Assembly: GCA_020725195.1 (NCBI GenBank)
Contig: DYFL01000022.1
Span: 1 to 40,184, forward strand
Length of the DNA: 40,184 bases
From: Hydrogenophilus sp.
Lineage (GTDB): Bacteria > Pseudomonadota > Gammaproteobacteria > Burkholderiales > Thiobacillaceae
Direction of reading: 5' to 3'
Position numbers and translations under genes: made by a program. Under the pieces are notes generated by a model. The model was not told the DNA's origin and did no database searches. It saw nothing but the letters and a program-made list of their open reading frames with translations. Below are positions 2,922 to 27,809 of this stretch, piece after piece (the stretch's first letter is position 1; each line of letters begins with the position of its first letter).

Positions 2922-4394
2922 ATGCAGTGGGAAACCGTCATCGGACTCGAAGTCCATACGCAACTGACGACGCGGTCGAAGATCTTCTCCGGGGCGCCCA
3001 TCGAATTCGGCGCCGCGCCCAACACCCAGGCCTGCGCCGTGGACCTCGCCCTGCCCGGGGTGCTGCCGGTGCTGAACCGCGGCGCGGTCGAGCGCGCGAT
3101 CAAGTTCGGCCTGGCCATCGGGGCCAGGCTCAACCGCGTCAACGTCTTCGCGCGCAAGAACTACTTCTACCCGGATCTGCCCAAGGGCTACCAGATCAGC
3201 CAGTTCGAGCTGCCCATCGTCGAGGGCGGCGAGCTGGCCATCCAGGTCGGCGATGCAAGCAAGGTGATCCGCCTGACCCGCGCCCACCTCGAGGAGGACG
3301 CCGGCAAGAGCCTGCACGAGGACTTTCATGGCTGCACCGGCATCGACCTCAACCGCGCCGGCACGCCGCTCCTCGAGATCGTCTCCGAGCCGGACATGAG
3401 GAGCGCGAAGGAGGCCGTGGCCTACGCCCGCGCGCTCTACAACCTGGTGACCTGGATCGGCATCTGCGACGGCAACATGCAGGAGGGCAGCTTCCGGGTC
3501 GACGCCAACGTCTCGGTGCGCCCCGCGGGCCAGAAAGAGTTCGGCACCCGGCGCGAGATCAAGAACCTCAACTCCTTCCGCTTCCTGGAGCAGGCCATCG
3601 ACTACGAGGTGCGCTGGCAGATCGAGCGGATCGAGGACGGCCACGCCATCCAGCAGGCCACGGTGCTCTTCGACCCGGACAGCGGCGCCACGCGCATGAT
3701 GCGCACCAAGGAGGAGGCCCACGACTACCGCTACTTCCCCGACCCCGACCTCTTGCCCGTGCGGCTCGACGACGCGCTCATCGCACGCATGCAGTCCGAG
3801 CTGCCCGAACTGCCGCAGGCCAAGCAGGCGCGCTACCAGTCCGACTGGGGCCTGTCGGCCTACGATGCCGCCACCCTGACCGCCTCCCACGCGCTGGCCG
3901 AATACTTCGAGGCCGTCGTTGCCAAGCTCCTTGTCTCCCCTCGCCCGCAAGCGGGAGAGGGGCAGGGGGAGAGGGTTGCCAAGCTCGCCGCCAACTGGGT
4001 CATGGGCGAGCTCTCCGGCACCCTCAACAAGGAAGGCCTCGACATCGCAGAGAGCCGGATCGGCGCGGCGAGCCTCGCGGGGCTCCTCGCCCGGCTACAG
4101 GACGGCACCCTCTCGGGCAAACTCGCCAAGGAGGTCTTCGCCGCCATGTGGGCGGGCGAGGGCGAGGCCGACGCCATCATCGAGGCCAAGGGCCTCAAGC
4201 AGATGTCCGACACGGGCGAGATCGAGCGCATCCTCGACGAGGTCCTCGCCGCCAACCCGAAGTCGGTCGAGGAATTCCGCGCCGGCAAGGACAAGGCCTT
4301 CAACGCCCTGGTCGGCCAGGTGATGAAGGCGACCCGCGGCAAGGCCAATCCCCAGCAGGTCAACGAGCTCCTGAAGAAGAAGCTGGCGGGCTGA
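2922..4394 (+). CDS. gatB: GatB, Asp/Glu-tRNA amidotransferase subunit B, with an in-frame repeat insertion
   Basis: Kinase-transamidase subunit of GatCAB, which phosphorylates the misacylated Glu or Asp on the tRNA and replaces the phosphate with ammonia. The N-terminal cradle is intact ([13 protein letters not shown] at residues 3-15; [12 protein letters not shown] near 86-97), and the helical and YqeY-like tail domains follow. The protein is 490 residues, slightly longer than usual. Residues 333-355 are odd: VAKL occurs twice, on either side of a Pro/Gly/Glu-rich stretch encoded by a palindromic DNA repeat (3918-3986). The reading frame stays open and the downstream AANWVMGEL motif is normal, so the protein is probably functional. 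Confidence 0.96.
3918..3986 (+). repeat. Palindromic repeat inserted in frame in gatB, flanked by a 12-bp direct repeat
   Basis: GTTGCCAAGCTC occurs at 3918-3929 and again at 3975-3986, exactly 57 bp (19 codons) apart. Between them, 3930-3974 holds a hairpin: CCCCTCGCCCGC, loop AA, GCGGGAGAGGGG (one mismatch), then a G-rich tail GCAGGGGGAGAGG. The same hairpin-plus-tail lies between atpE and atpF at 21491-21527. The direct repeats look like a target-site duplication, but many GatB proteins have a few extra residues here that this one lacks, so replacement of native sequence is also possible. Confidence 0.85.
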
Positions 4395-9474: not shown

Positions 9475-11436
9475 TCAGGCCGCGCTCGCCCGCCCTTCGT
9501 CGCCCAGCAGCGCCACCCGCCACCCCGCCTCGGCGACGAAGGCCTCGACCCGGTCCGGCGGCATGGGCCGGCCGACGTGGTAGCCCTGCACCATGTCGCA
9601 CCCCAGCCGGGTCAGGTGCTTCAGGATGCGCGCGTTCTCCACCCCCTCGGCGACGACGTCGAGCCCCAGGTTGTGGGCCAGCCGGATGGTGGATTCGACG
9701 ATGACCAGGTCGTCCTGGTTCTTCTCCATGTCCATGACGAAGGCGCGGTCGATCTTCAGTTCGCTCACGGGCAGCTTGCGCAGGCGGGAGAGCGAGGAGT
9801 GCCCGGTGCCGAAGTCGTCGATGGACAGGCTCACGCCCAGCTTGCGGATCTCGTCGAGCAGGCCGGTGAGGCGCTCGTAGTCGCTCAGGAAGATGCTCTC
9901 GGTGATCTCGAAGATCAGGCCCTCGGCGCCCGCCTGGCGGGCCGAGGCCTTGTGCAGCTCGCCGAGGAAGCGCGGCTCCAGGATCACCGTCACGGGGAGG
10001 TTCACCGCCACCTGGATGTCCCAGCCCAGGCGCCGCCAGCGGGCGCACTGATCCAGGGCCGTGCGCAGCGCCCAGCAGCTGAACTCGTAGATCAGCCCGG
10101 TCTGCTCCATGGCGCTGATGAACATGTCCGGCGGCACGAAGCCGCGCTGCCCGTGCGGCCAGCGCGCCAGGGCCTCGAAGCCGACGATGGTGCCGGTGGC
10201 GAGCGCCACCTTGGGCTGGTAGTGGAGCTCGAACTCCTGGCGCTCCAGGGCCGCCTGCAGGTCGCTCACCAGGCTGAGGCGGCCGGAGGTGCATTCGCTG
10301 TAGGTCTCGTCGTAGACCCGCACGTCGTTGCGGCTGCGCTTGGCGGCGTACATGGCCGCGTCGGCGTGCTTGAGCAGCTGGGTCACGCTGTCGCCGTGCT
10401 GCGGGTAGAGGGTGATGCCGATGCTGGCGGTGACGGCCACGTCCTGGCCGCCCAGCCTGAAGGGCCGCTTCAGGGCCTCCTGCAGGGAGCGGGCGATGGC
10501 GACGGCCTGGCCCTCATCGGCATGGGGCAGGAGGGCCGCGAACTCGTCGCCGCCGATGCGGCTGAGCGTGCCCACGGCACCGATGAGCGCCTCGAAGCGC
10601 TCGGCCACGCCCCGGATGAGCAGATCGCCCTCCTCGTGGCCCAGGGTGTCGTTGACGTCCTGGAAGCGGTCGAGGTCGACGAGCAGGATGGCGAGCGGCT
10701 GCTCCGGGCCGGCGGCGGCCATGCGCTCCTGCAGGCGGTCGCGCAGCAGGGAGCGGTTGGGCAGCCCGGTGAGGGGGTCGTAGAGCGTGAGGTATTCCAG
10801 TTCCTGGTTGACGGCGAGCAGCTGCCTGTTGAGGCGCCGCAGCTGGCGCTGGTATTCCTCGGCCTCAGTCCGCGCCTCCTGCACCTTCTGCATGACCATG
10901 GCGTTCTCGATGGCGATGGCGACCTGGCCGGCGAAGAGCTCCAGCAGGCTGAGGTCCTTCTCCGTGAACTCGCCGCCGCGCTTGTTCATGCCGGCGATGC
11001 CGCCGAGGAAGTGCTCGCGGCCGATGAGCGGCACGAGGATGAGGCTGCCCGCCTCCTTCTCCCAGCGGTTGCGCTCCTGGGGCGTGAGCTCGTCGAGCAT
11101 GCCCCGCCACCAGGGCCTCTTGTGGCGCCAGACCCAGCCGCAGACGCCGTAATCGAGGGGCAGGGACTCGCCGACGATCTCCTCGGCGTGGCGGCCGGCG
11201 CCGGCCCGGTAGGTGTATTCGTCGCAGCCGGGGCTGAGGGTGGGGATGAGCACCGTGTCGGCGTCGAGCAGCGCCCGCGCCCGGTCGGCGACGAGCTGCA
11301 GCACCTTGTCCAGGTCGAGCTCGCTGCCGACCGCCATGGCCGTCTCCCTGAGCATGGCGATCTCGTTTTCGCGCTGGCGCAGCTCGTCTTCCAACCGGGC
11401 GACGCGCTGCGCCTGGGGCGTCGGCTTTGCAGCCAT
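9475..11436 (-). CDS. GAF-GGDEF-EAL cyclic-di-GMP protein
   Basis: Cytoplasmic 653-residue signalling protein. Order: short N-terminal coiled coil (about 8-32), GAF sensor domain (about 35-182), coiled-coil linker (about 183-215), GGDEF domain with intact GGDEF at 295-299, and EAL domain with intact EALARW from 421, NLPV, FEITES, SIDDFGTGHSSL, ELKID, VAEGVE and QGYHVG. Both catalytic sites look complete, so it could make and/or break c-di-GMP; the RxxD inhibitory site before GGDEF is missing. No membrane segment is seen. The ATG at 11436 has an AGGAG site ten bases upstream; a longer frame adds 15 residues without one. Confidence 0.92.
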   Translation of the reverse strand: MAAKPTPQAQRVARLEDELRQRENEIAMLRETAMAVGSELDLDKVLQLVADRARALLDADTVLIPTLSPGCDEYTYRAGAGRHAEEIVGESLPLDYGVCGWVWRHKRPWWRGMLDELTPQERNRWEKEAGSLILVPLIGREHFLGGIAGMNKRGGEFTEKDLSLLELFAGQVAIAIENAMVMQKVQEARTEAEEYQRQLRRLNRQLLAVNQELEYLTLYDPLTGLPNRSLLRDRLQERMAAAGPEQPLAILLVDLDRFQDVNDTLGHEEGDLLIRGVAERFEALIGAVGTLSRIGGDEFAALLPHADEGQAVAIARSLQEALKRPFRLGGQDVAVTASIGITLYPQHGDSVTQLLKHADAAMYAAKRSRNDVRVYDETYSECTSGRLSLVSDLQAALERQEFELHYQPKVALATGTIVGFEALARWPHGQRGFVPPDMFISAMEQTGLIYEFSCWALRTALDQCARWRRLGWDIQVAVNLPVTVILEPRFLGELHKASARQAGAEGLIFEITESIFLSDYERLTGLLDEIRKLGVSLSIDDFGTGHSSLSRLRKLPVSELKIDRAFVMDMEKNQDDLVIVESTIRLAHNLGLDVVAEGVENARILKHLTRLGCDMVQGYHVGRPMPPDRVEAFVAEAGWRVALLGDEGRASAA

Positions 11437-21450: not shown

Positions 21451-21490
21451 GCGCGAACCTCGTTAAAGCATCCGCGAAGCGTCCTCGTCC

Positions 21491-21527
21491 CCCTCTCCCG
21501 CAGGCGGGAGAGGGCAGGGGCGAGGGC
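21491..21527. repeat. Palindromic repeat between atpE and atpF, same family as the gatB insertion
   Basis: CCCTCTCCCGC-AG-GCGGGAGAGGG is a perfect 11-bp stem (21491-21514), followed by a G-rich tail CAGGGGCGAGGG. Over about 40 bp it matches the element inside gatB (3930-3974) with only a few differences. The motif is of a kind common between genes in proteobacteria. It lies inside the operon between two transcribed genes. Confidence 0.85.
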
Positions 21528-21550
21528 GCCGGCGAAGGTTGGATGACCCA

Positions 21551-24770: not shown

Positions 24771-25390
24771 TACACAGGCTCCATGATGATGATGTGCCGC
24801 GCCGCCTCCAGGCCGGGCACGTTCAGCGCCGCGTCGCGCGTGACCCGCGCCCCCTTGAGGGTCGCGACCTCCTCGTTGGGGTAGATCCCCTTCATGGCCA
24901 GCCATTCGCCGCCCTCGGCCAGCAGGTGCCGGGTCAGGGCGACGAATTCGGACAGGTCGCTGAAGGCGCGGGATACGATCTGCGCGTAGGGCCGCGGCGG
25001 CCGGAAGGCCTCCGCCCGCGCATGCACCACCTCCACGTTCTTGAGCCCCAGCTCGATGGCCGCCTGCTGCATGAAGGCGCACTTCTTCTGGCTCGCGTCG
25101 AGCAGCGTCACATGCATCGCCGGCCGCGCCATGGCCAGCGGGATGCCGGGCAGGCCGCCGCCGCTGCCCACGTCGAGGAGCCGGTCCGCCGTCACGTGCG
25201 GCAGCACCGCGAGGCTGTCGAGGAGATGATGGGTGAGCATGCGCTCCGGCTCGTGGATCGCGGTCAGGTTGTAGGTCTTGTTCCACCTGGCCAGGAGGCC
25301 CAGGTAGGCCATGAGCCTGCCCCGGACCCCGGCATCCAGCTCCAGGCCCATGCCCGCGATACCCTCGGCGAGCCGCGTCTCCAGGCTCAT
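24770..25390 (-). CDS. rsmG: 16S rRNA (guanine527-N7)-methyltransferase
   Basis: Methylates N7 of G527 in 16S rRNA with S-adenosylmethionine; loss gives low-level streptomycin resistance in other bacteria. The 206-residue protein has the SAM-binding motif [16 protein letters not shown] at about 71-86 and the N-terminal [10 protein letters not shown] at 36-45. The ATG at 25390 overlaps the mnmG stop (ATGA), so the longer open frame upstream is not coding. Normal length. Confidence 0.96.
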
Positions 25391-27411
25391 GCCGCCCCCT
25401 TCAGCAGATCCCCGCGCTTGAGGTGGACCAGCAGCACGGAGACGGCCGCGGGGGTCACGCCCTGGATGCGCGCGGCCTGGCCCAGGGTGGCCGGGCGCTG
25501 CTGGCAGAGTTTCTGGCGCACCTCCATGGACAGTCCCGTGAGGCTCATGTAGTCGATGCCCGCGGGCAGCCGCAGCTCCTCGTACTGGCGATGCCGCTCG
25601 ATTTCCTCGCGCTGACGCTCGATGTAGCCGGCGTACTTGGCCTGGATCTCCACCTGCTCCCTCGCCTCGGCATCGGTGAGGCCAGGCCCGGCGTCGGGCA
25701 GGGTCATCAGCGCCTCGTAGTCCACCTCCGGCCGGCGCAGCAGGTCGAACAGGCTGTATTGGCTGCGGCCGCCGCTGCGCGGCTTCACGCCGGCTTCGCC
25801 TGCATGGGCCTCCGCCGAAGCGAAGCCGCCGCCCTCGGCGCCGGCTGCGTTTTCCCGCTCGACGGGCTTGCCCCCGAGCCTGGCCACCACATCGGGTGGC
25901 AGCAGTTTGAGATCCACCCAAGTCGACCTCAGACGCTCGGCCTCGCGGGCGACGGCCTCGCGCTTCGCCTCGAAGCGGGCCCAGCGGGCGTCGTCGACCA
26001 CGCCGAGCCGGCGGCCGGTCTCGGTGAGCCTCAGGTCGGCGTTGTCCTCGCGCAGGCTCAAGCGGTATTCCGCCCGGCTGGTGAACATGCGGTAGGGCTC
26101 GCTCACCCCGCGGGTGATGAGGTCGTCGACCAGCACGCCGAGGTAGGCCTCGTCCCGGCGCGGCCACCAGGACTCCTTCTCCTGGACGAAGAGGCCGGCG
26201 TTGATGCCCGCGAGCAGCCCCTGGGCGGCGGCCTCCTCGTAGCCCGTGGTGCCGTTGATCTGGCCGGCGAAGAAGAGGCCGGCGATGGCCCGGGTCTCCA
26301 GGCTGGGCTGCAGGCCCCGCGGGTCGTAGTAGTCGTACTCGATGGCATAGCCCGGGCGCAGGATGTGCGCCCGCTCCAGGCCGCGGATGGAGCGCACGAG
26401 TGCGAGCTGCACGTCGAAGGGCAGGCTGGTGGAGATGCCGTTGGGGTAGACCTCGTGGGTGCCGAGCCCCTCGGGCTCCAGGAAGACCTGGTGCGAGGCC
26501 TTGTCGGCGAAGCGCTGAATCTTGTCCTCGATCGACGGGCAGTAGCGCGGCCCCACTCCCTCGATGACGCCCGCATACAGGGGCGAGCGGTCCAGCCCGC
26601 CGCGGATGATCTCGTGGGTGCGCGCGTTGGTCTGCGCGATCCAGCAGGGCAGCTGCCTGGGGTGCAGGTCGCGGCTGCCCAGGAAGGAGAAGACCGGCGC
26701 CGGGTCGTCGCCCGGCTGCAGCTGCAGCGCGGAATAGTCGATGCTGCGCCCGTCGATGCGCGGCGGCGTGCCGGTCTTGAGCCGCCCGACCGGCAGCTTC
26801 AGCTCCCTGAGCCGCGCCGCCAGGCTGACCGCGGGCGGGTCACCCATGCGCCCGGCCTGGAAGTGCTCCAGGCCGACGTGGATGAGGCCGTCGAGGAAGG
26901 TGCCGGCGGTGAGCACCACGGCGCGGGCCTGGAAGACGACCCCCAGCTGGGTCCTGACGCCCGCGACCCGGTCGCCCTCGAGCAGGAGGTCGTCCACCGC
27001 CTGCTGGAAGAGGGTGAGGTTGGCCTGGTTCTCCAGGCGGCGGCGGATCGCCTGCCTGTAGAGGACGCGGTCGGCCTGGGCGCGGGTGGCGCGCACCGCC
27101 GGGCCCTTGCTGGAATTGAGGATGCGGAACTGGATTCCGGCCTCGTCGGCGGCGAGGGCCATGGCCCCGCCCAGGGCGTCCACCTCCTTGACCAGATGTC
27201 CCTTGCCGATGCCCCCGATGGAGGGGTTGCAGGACATGGCCCCCAGGGTCTCGAGGTTGTGCGTGAGCAGCAGGGTCGCGACGCCCATGCGCGCGCAGGC
27301 GAGTGCGGCCTCGGTGCCGGCATGGCCCCCGCCCACCACGATCACGTCGAAAGCGTCCGGAAAACGAAACGGCGCAGGCGGCGCCCTCCGTTCCGTTTCT
27401 TTGGGAATCAT
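25387..27411 (-). CDS. mnmG: MnmG, tRNA U34 carboxymethylaminomethyl modification enzyme, with an in-frame repeat insertion
   Basis: FAD protein that acts with MnmE (here at 32121-33461) to modify U34 in tRNAs that read two-codon sets. The FAD fold shows [19 protein letters not shown] from 26, [13 protein letters not shown] follows, and the C-terminal helical domain ends with [18 protein letters not shown]. It is 674 residues, about 45 more than E. coli. Part is a longer N-terminus before the FAD motif. The rest is an Ala/Gly-rich insert before the conserved LLRRPEVDY; residues 531-551 of it are encoded by a copy of the 69-bp repeat. ATG at 27411 was chosen; upstream codons have no support. 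Confidence 0.96.
25759..25819 (-). repeat. Copy of the 69-bp structured repeat inside mnmG
   Basis: On the minus strand this 61-bp stretch aligns without gaps to the core of tandem copy 2 (921-981), with 48 of 61 bases equal by hand count. The translated frames agree too: [20 protein letters not shown] here against [20 protein letters not shown] in the intergenic copy, 14 of 20 identical. It begins TTCGGCGGAGGC and ends GGCCGCAGCCAA. It lies where other MnmG proteins go directly from the preceding helix to LLRRPE. Confidence 0.85.
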
Positions 27412-27809
27412 GCAGTTAGCCTGTGCCGCGCGATGCCGAAAAGGGGGCCCATCATACGCCAAAATCCGGGCCCGGGGTGTGTTCCACGTGAAACAGGCGC
27501 CCCTGCGAGGGCGGTGGCCGGGCGCCTATTTCCCCCCGCAACGGGCCAGCCGCCGTGGCGCCCGATCAGACCGATCCACCGGCCATTCTCGGCTGACCCC
27601 GTTTCGGAATCCGGCAAGATCGAGCTGCCGCAGGCGGCCTCGCCGCCCGGCTGGTGCAGCACATCCGGGGCACGGACACGGTCACCGCCCGCTGGATCGC
27701 CTCCTGCGGCCGACCCCCGGCTTGCCCCGCGGCGGCGGCGCGGGGTAAATTTCCAGCGCAAGGATATTCGAGCGGCAAGAAAACGCCTTTTTGGAGGGGG
27801 AGGAACGCC
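27412..27809. other. mnmG-lipoprotein intergenic region (398 bp)
   Basis: Divergent promoter region. It holds a parS site (27480-27495) and, just beside it, an inverted pair AGGCGCCC (27495-27502) / GGGCGCCT (27520-27527). In frame 1 around 27618-27707 a short translation, AARLVQHIRGTDTVTARW, recalls the segment before the GGDEF motif of diguanylate cyclases, so it may be a decayed fragment; stop codons and the lack of the rest make it non-coding. No promoter is obvious. Confidence 0.4.
27480..27495. promoter_or_regulatory. parS site 1
   Basis: TGTTCCACGTGAAACA is identical to the Bacillus subtilis parS sequence and a one-base variant of the perfect palindrome TGTTTCACGTGAAACA. It lies upstream of the mnmG-rsmG-parA-parB genes and about 8 kb from dnaA, as expected for a ParB centromere site. 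Confidence 0.93.

Follow-up and report, generated by a model that had tools for sequence, protein, structure and literature searches.

The window, a stretch of 40,184 nucleotides, carries at 2922..4394 on the plus strand the gene gatB, encoding the Asp-tRNA(Asn)/Glu-tRNA(Gln) amidotransferase subunit B. The reading frame is uninterrupted over its 490 amino acids, an in-frame insert included. The product scores 792 bits against NCBIfam NF004014 (cut-off 414) and has the Pfam domains GatB_N and GatB_Yqey. As the preliminary description had stated, a 57-bp unit is bounded by identical 12-mers, GTTGCCAAGCTC, at 3918..3929 (codons V-A-K-L) and 3975..3986, both on the plus strand and 57 bp apart from start to start. 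The palindrome CTCGCCCGCAAGCGGGAGAG at 3940-3959 lies between them and forms the core of an element with the layout TCTCCC-CTCGCCCGCAAGCGGGAGAG-GGGCAGGGGGAGAGGG and the 3' head GGGGGAGAGGG, occupying 3934..3975 on the plus strand, with approximate ends that were set by comparison with other copies. On the left, the bases CTTG separate the repeat from TCTCCC, so that repeat and element do not touch; on the right, the two overlap by a single G, which ends the element and begins the repeat.

The likeness of the insert's interior to a palindrome between ATP-synthase genes, noticed in the same description, was confirmed. The core pattern, with up to three mismatches, occurs twice in the window, in gatB and at 21493-21512 within an intergenic family member at 21474..21530 (plus strand), whose ends pair too; two matches were reached in none of 100 shuffles (shuffle mean 0.18). 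The predicted RNA fold of the intergenic copy is -45.2 kcal/mol (z -5.5) and that of the gatB copy -33.6 kcal/mol (z -1.5). An Rfam search of the whole window gave no match above the gathering score, and partial matches in four records of a plasmid collection were uninformative. A second repeat family inside a second conserved gene had also been proposed, and it too proved real: the mnmG insert resembles a 69-bp tandem repeat at 842-983 with a local score of 59, which none of 500 mononucleotide shuffles reached (best 34). In mnmG (25387-27459, minus strand) the similar in-frame stretch lies near residues 540-570, and the match to the MnmG profile breaks after residue 518.

In the AlphaFold2 model of GatB, built from 31 sequences with a mean pLDDT of 81 and poorly modelled regions (below 50) within the catalytic domain, the insert occupies an inter-helix loop of the tail domain, at residues 339-347 between helices 323-338 and 348-371. 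The pLDDT is 63 for residues 341-350, 85 for 331-340, 93 for 321-330 and 94 for 351-360. The two best-matching solved homologues, 4wj3 and 2df4, have a gap at the position of the insert.

The named records nearest to the window's GatB were Tepidiphilus, Thiobacillaceae, Thiobacillus and Hydrogenophilales, and the genome is therefore taken as betaproteobacterial. This genome, of 2.84 Mb in 108 contigs and 98.8% completeness, contains 110 matches to the core with up to three mismatches, compared with 11 for the reversed control, and a blastn search with the gatB stretch returned 49 genomic matches. The best dispersed copies share 86-93% identity with the gatB insert over 39-55 bp, the asymmetric head included. 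In an alignment of copies from the window and from 157 kb of sequence surrounding matches, the core palindrome precedes a head of the form GGGG(A or T)GAGGG. Like REPs, the family is thus a short palindrome in high copy number located mostly outside genes, as 30 of the 44 well-formed copies, counting those in the composite frame of L153 described below, are outside the listed in-gene set. An extra upstream hairpin, defined by a loose motif, accompanies 18 of these 30 other copies versus 3 of the 14 in-gene copies. Copies outside genes often have the head GGGGTGAGGG, and in-gene copies mostly GGGGAGAGGG; the TGA-bearing head is rarer in genes (2/14 in-gene copies vs 20/30 others, p = 0.003). 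The GAGAGGG-headed form is free of stops in all six frames, and the GTGAGGG-headed form has a stop in one of the six. The difference in heads may reflect selection against a possible stop, or the existence of two subfamilies.

Copies of the element lie in frame in many unrelated conserved genes. From 79 core matches (up to four mismatches) in the window and the 157 kb of stretches, we identified 20 in-frame copies, distributed over 15 named genes, using an open frame and third-position G+C and then family searches (NCBIfam, Pfam). The genes are aroA (two copies), murB, phosphomannomutase, glcE, nirB (two), mpl, ybeY, metG, cobD, cmr6, valS, prmA (three), a uvrA homologue (two), hsdM and gatB. 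Thirteen of the 15 passed an NCBIfam equivalog cut-off; phosphomannomutase and the cut-off uvrA piece had high scores below theirs, and the hsdM copy is situated beyond the matched domain. Nine of the 29 in-gene candidate matches were left out of the count: five as chance or wrong-frame matches (L168:1227, L189:1077, window positions 9773 and 29256, and the minus frame of L173), two in the composite open frame of L153, and two in methylase fragments (the second ORF of L145, and L149). The frame of L153 (77-2989, contig C23 of the same genome) has 971 amino acids and combines a DUF559 domain with a YgiQ radical-SAM protein, several palindromes lying between them. For gatB, aroA, valS, the uvrA homologue and metG, the extra sequence is seen directly by comparison with orthologues of relatives. 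In that comparison L244, L252 and L268 have no sequence at the site, and of the seven rows for uvrA, four (L257-L260) represent more distantly related uvrA genes. In comparisons with solved homologous structures, which took in phosphomannomutase, prmA, murB, mpl, cobD and ybeY, the palindrome peptide fell in a gap, in a loop of poor match or between two stretches that did match. The prmA gene has tandem copies of a 57-bp unit that includes the palindrome, so that local duplication does occur after insertion. The prmA stretch L186:1412-1563 (contig C88) holds three palindromes, two of them in frame-keeping 57-bp tandem units (PLPQAGEGAIAEPRAPHPT).

Among 77 genomes from two families, 12 have palindrome-type inserts in this same inter-helix loop of GatB, in both orientations; long alleles were over-represented in the rows compared, and the ratio is therefore not a frequency. 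The inserts were judged by eye, with those of L010 and L230 being decayed and less certain. The 77 genomes were represented by 80 gatB rows, with L232/L234, L023/L287 and L026/L288 as same-gene pairs, after L233, L235 and L236 had been dropped as too weak. Insert-bearing genomes belong to the window's family (G000, G013, G010, G418, G456, G451 and G443) and to family f15 (G166, G398, G348, G513 and G512). One orientation is found in G000, G418 and G166, and the opposite one in G010, G456, G451, G443, G398 and G348. L110 (Nitrosomonadales) is a further case, and the protein of L108 (Sulfuricellaceae) equals the G513 allele over the 400 residues compared. Among 20 order-wide gatB stretches, comprising long alleles and controls picked among about 150 matches listed from 381 genomes, three have the palindrome, all in f15. 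As had been proposed, the gatB insert is supported as an inserted, repeated palindromic element kept in frame, with no counterpart in most relatives compared.

The aligned linker segment has 21-23 residues in 58 of the 67 palindrome-free rows, 25-55 in the other nine (L272, L229, L271, L198, L202, L286, L015, L017 and L199) and 35 in the window, so the GatB loop also lengthens by other means. Long alleles of families f2, f10, f11, f32 and f46 likewise have extra length without the palindrome. In L229 and L272 (gatB of G232 and G468) the long linkers are at the same loop. The core is more abundant in genomes with a gatB insert (median 45, n=12) than in those without (median 9, n=66; p = 0.0008), an association that is weaker within each family (p 0.016 and 0.08) and uncorrected for kinship. 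Exceptions among the insert-bearing genomes are G456, with no core match, and G443, an incomplete genome with four.

The linker of MetG before its C-terminal tRNA-binding domain is a second site of repeated occurrence. It has a palindrome-type insert in three of the seven genomes with sequence there, and the window's own genome, G021 and G013 each contain a different palindrome-type sequence. The native MetG linker is proline-rich. The metG gene of G021 (L263) bears two separate palindrome-type inserts.

The preliminary description took the 12-bp repeats in gatB for a target-site duplication, as would be left by a cut-and-paste transposase acting on a MITE-like element. The repeats are indeed perfect, they flank the element in the right order, and their length exceeds chance for this copy: only 1 of 1,866 left/right flank pairs swapped between copies reached 12 bp, which makes a chance origin unlikely. 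Even so, a classical duplication of this kind appears quite improbable to us. Excision of 57 bp would leave 16 residues in the linker segment, and the shortest allele in three aligned sets (110, 21 and 80 rows) has 20; most relatives compared lack the palindrome, but none of the aligned alleles is as short as such an excision predicts. Relative to its nearest relative, G002, the window's gatB shows a net gain of 12 codons (36 bp), which is less than the element of about 42 bp, so native bases seem to have been lost and not duplicated. The expected further in-gene copies were found in number, yet without the expected flanking duplications, as 41 of 44 well-formed copies show at most 7 bp of flanking repeat, within the range of flanks exchanged between copies, and not the direct repeats of constant length that abut most copies of a MITE. 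The exceptions are the gatB copy, with 12 bp, and two copies from the tandem duplication in prmA, with 20 and 15 bp, and the 12-bp flanking repeat is no family-wide trait. The 4 bp between the left repeat and the element also argue against a duplication. Moreover, native direct repeats of at least 8 bp occur in the linker of 10 of the 67 palindrome-free rows; the G002 linker has CCAAGCTCG twice, 12 bp apart, and the G430 linker a 12-bp tandem. By comparison with these alleles, the left 12-bp repeat is most likely native linker sequence. The simplest account of the 12-bp repeat is an insertion between two native A-K-L codon runs together with a few matching bases, although 3-4 matching bases of the window's 12-mers extend beyond the native repeat and are not accounted for by these runs. 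A duplication followed by a deletion at gatB is still conceivable, because no other genome of the window's genus was among the relatives recovered in the comparisons.

That the linker duplicates in tandem, as in G430, might suggest local slippage in a native low-complexity linker that merely resembles the palindrome, but the close match of the insert to dispersed copies, which extends to the asymmetric head, makes this hardly credible. The inserts at the GatB loop could also go back to a single old insertion, or have spread by horizontal exchange of parts of gatB, and have decayed since. The f15 inserts have similar 3' tails (e.g. GDGDAARLNGMAKL), and L010 (G013, from the window's family) ends alike in AARLRESAKL, so that some of the f15 and L010 inserts may be related by descent or exchange, as judged from their sequences. 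As an account of all the inserts we consider either origin unlikely, however, as they have opposite orientations and different starts, and insert-bearing alleles often have empty sisters, several of them in starred clades. On a GatB tree of 78 rows, inferred with the linker left out and the partial rows L285 and L286 omitted, the insert label has to change at least 10 times (range 10-10 in 200 bootstrap trees) and shows no more clustering than shuffled labels do (mean 10.5); L234, the same gene as L232, was unlabelled, which does not affect the count. Some of these changes may be losses. What might have moved the element is a separate matter. Two Y1_Tnp (RAYT-like) genes above the Pfam cut-off are present in the genome, the palindromes occur as inverted pairs 34 bp apart, REPIN-like, in three places, and there is no family-wide target-site duplication. 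HUH transposases are not known to leave target-site duplications. The element may therefore be a REP of the RAYT type (Y1/HUH), mobilized by the product of either RAYT-like gene or by a RAYT that the genome has since lost, a possibility that we put forward tentatively. A RAYT-mobilized REP would be expected to flank its RAYT gene, but the Y1_Tnp gene on contig C45 is bordered by a different inverted repeat of the GTGGGAGCGCCTTCAGGCGCGAA type, with the nearest copy of the gatB-type palindrome about 2.7 kb away, and no such palindrome lies in the 2.5 kb examined near the Y1_Tnp gene on contig C15. The constant tag of the GTAG/CGTC superfamily of REPs is also absent: CGTC is found ahead of the stem in 6 of the 30 other copies and in none of 14 in-gene copies, and GTAG in none of 44, the head end of the copies having only been looked over. 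The RAYT-like gene on C45, with its bordering GTGGGAGCGCCTTCAGGCGCGAA-type inverted repeat, is at L165:1-630.

We consider it highly probable that the gatB insert is a copy of a dispersed palindromic repeat of about 40-45 bp, which is mobile within betaproteobacterial genomes and translated where it has landed in tolerant loops. The element would have entered the loop between the two helices of the GatB tail domain, at residues 339-347 of the model, replacing or displacing a few native linker codons with a probable loss of native bases, and it would be translated there as a 15-residue peptide. A copy in either orientation might survive in a gene, because the GAGAGGG-headed form is stop-free in six frames, provided that the gene's length changes by whole codons and the loop is tolerant; selection would remove copies that break the frame or enter intolerant sites. 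Stop-free frames together with loop tolerance could explain why so many essential enzymes have copies in their loops and linkers, and why the GatB loop and the MetG linker have been hit repeatedly in different lineages. The account presupposes that the element is mobile and neutral or nearly so, and that its mover might be a Y1/HUH-type or another activity on hairpin DNA; against it stands that neither excision, transposition nor an enzyme was seen. A bolder proposal is that a tag-less element readable in six frames has been driven repeatedly into the GatB loop and the MetG linker across betaproteobacterial families by the target preference of an enzyme, or has been kept there by selection, as a source of new protein segments in essential enzymes. 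This we regard as rather doubtful.

The reading that fits best is a new betaproteobacterial family of protein-coding palindromic repeats, of the RPE or intragenic REP kind. An account of REPs, in the part available to us, describes them inside genes including uvrA and tRNA synthetases, reports different REPs at about the same recB site in two Xanthomonas species, and proposes flexible linkers or loops as REP-tolerant sites (PMC3733652). The present family resembles the intragenic REPs of that account in being 20-40-bp palindromes in high copy number that lie in frame in many genes. It differs in having neither a constant GTAG/CGTC tag nor a RAYT beside a copy, and here the repeated hits on one loop were counted on a tree; the gatB-type family is not named in the available part of the account (PMC3733652). 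RPEs are found in Rickettsia ORFs, where the frame is kept, the peptides are solvent-exposed and the same loci are occupied in orthologues (PMC3767692; review PMC10969869). Palindromic repeats in ORFs without frame loss, at occupied orthologous loci, are common to both, and in-frame copies in unrelated conserved genes, here 20 in 15 named genes, are RPE-like. As far as these sources describe them, Rickettsia RPEs are about 100-150 bp long, with one of 84 bp (PMC3767692, PMC10969869), whereas the gatB element has about 42 bp, is betaproteobacterial and occurs in both orientations at one site. The two are likened by behaviour. With REPINs and RAYT-linked REPs, as portrayed in the accessible portions of PMC3116915 and PMC3686654, the family shares inverted palindrome pairs and high copy number, but the 5' tetranucleotide and the adjoining RAYT gene were not found here. 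According to the part of a 2025 REP survey that was available, REPs seldom overlap coding regions (PMC12306157). Among the papers listed in an open-access collection for the element core, the encoded peptides, and palindromes in gatB or Thiobacillus, none dealt with the family.

The addition of peptides to essential proteins by selfish DNA is best known from Rickettsia. Another lineage, presumably free-living, shows peptide-adding palindromes in 15 named genes of a single genome. With the GatB loop hit many times, sister alleles can be compared to test an old question, namely whether the inserts are passengers without effect or serve as raw material for changes in proteins. The in-gene copies are also a natural map of the tolerant loops in essential enzymes.
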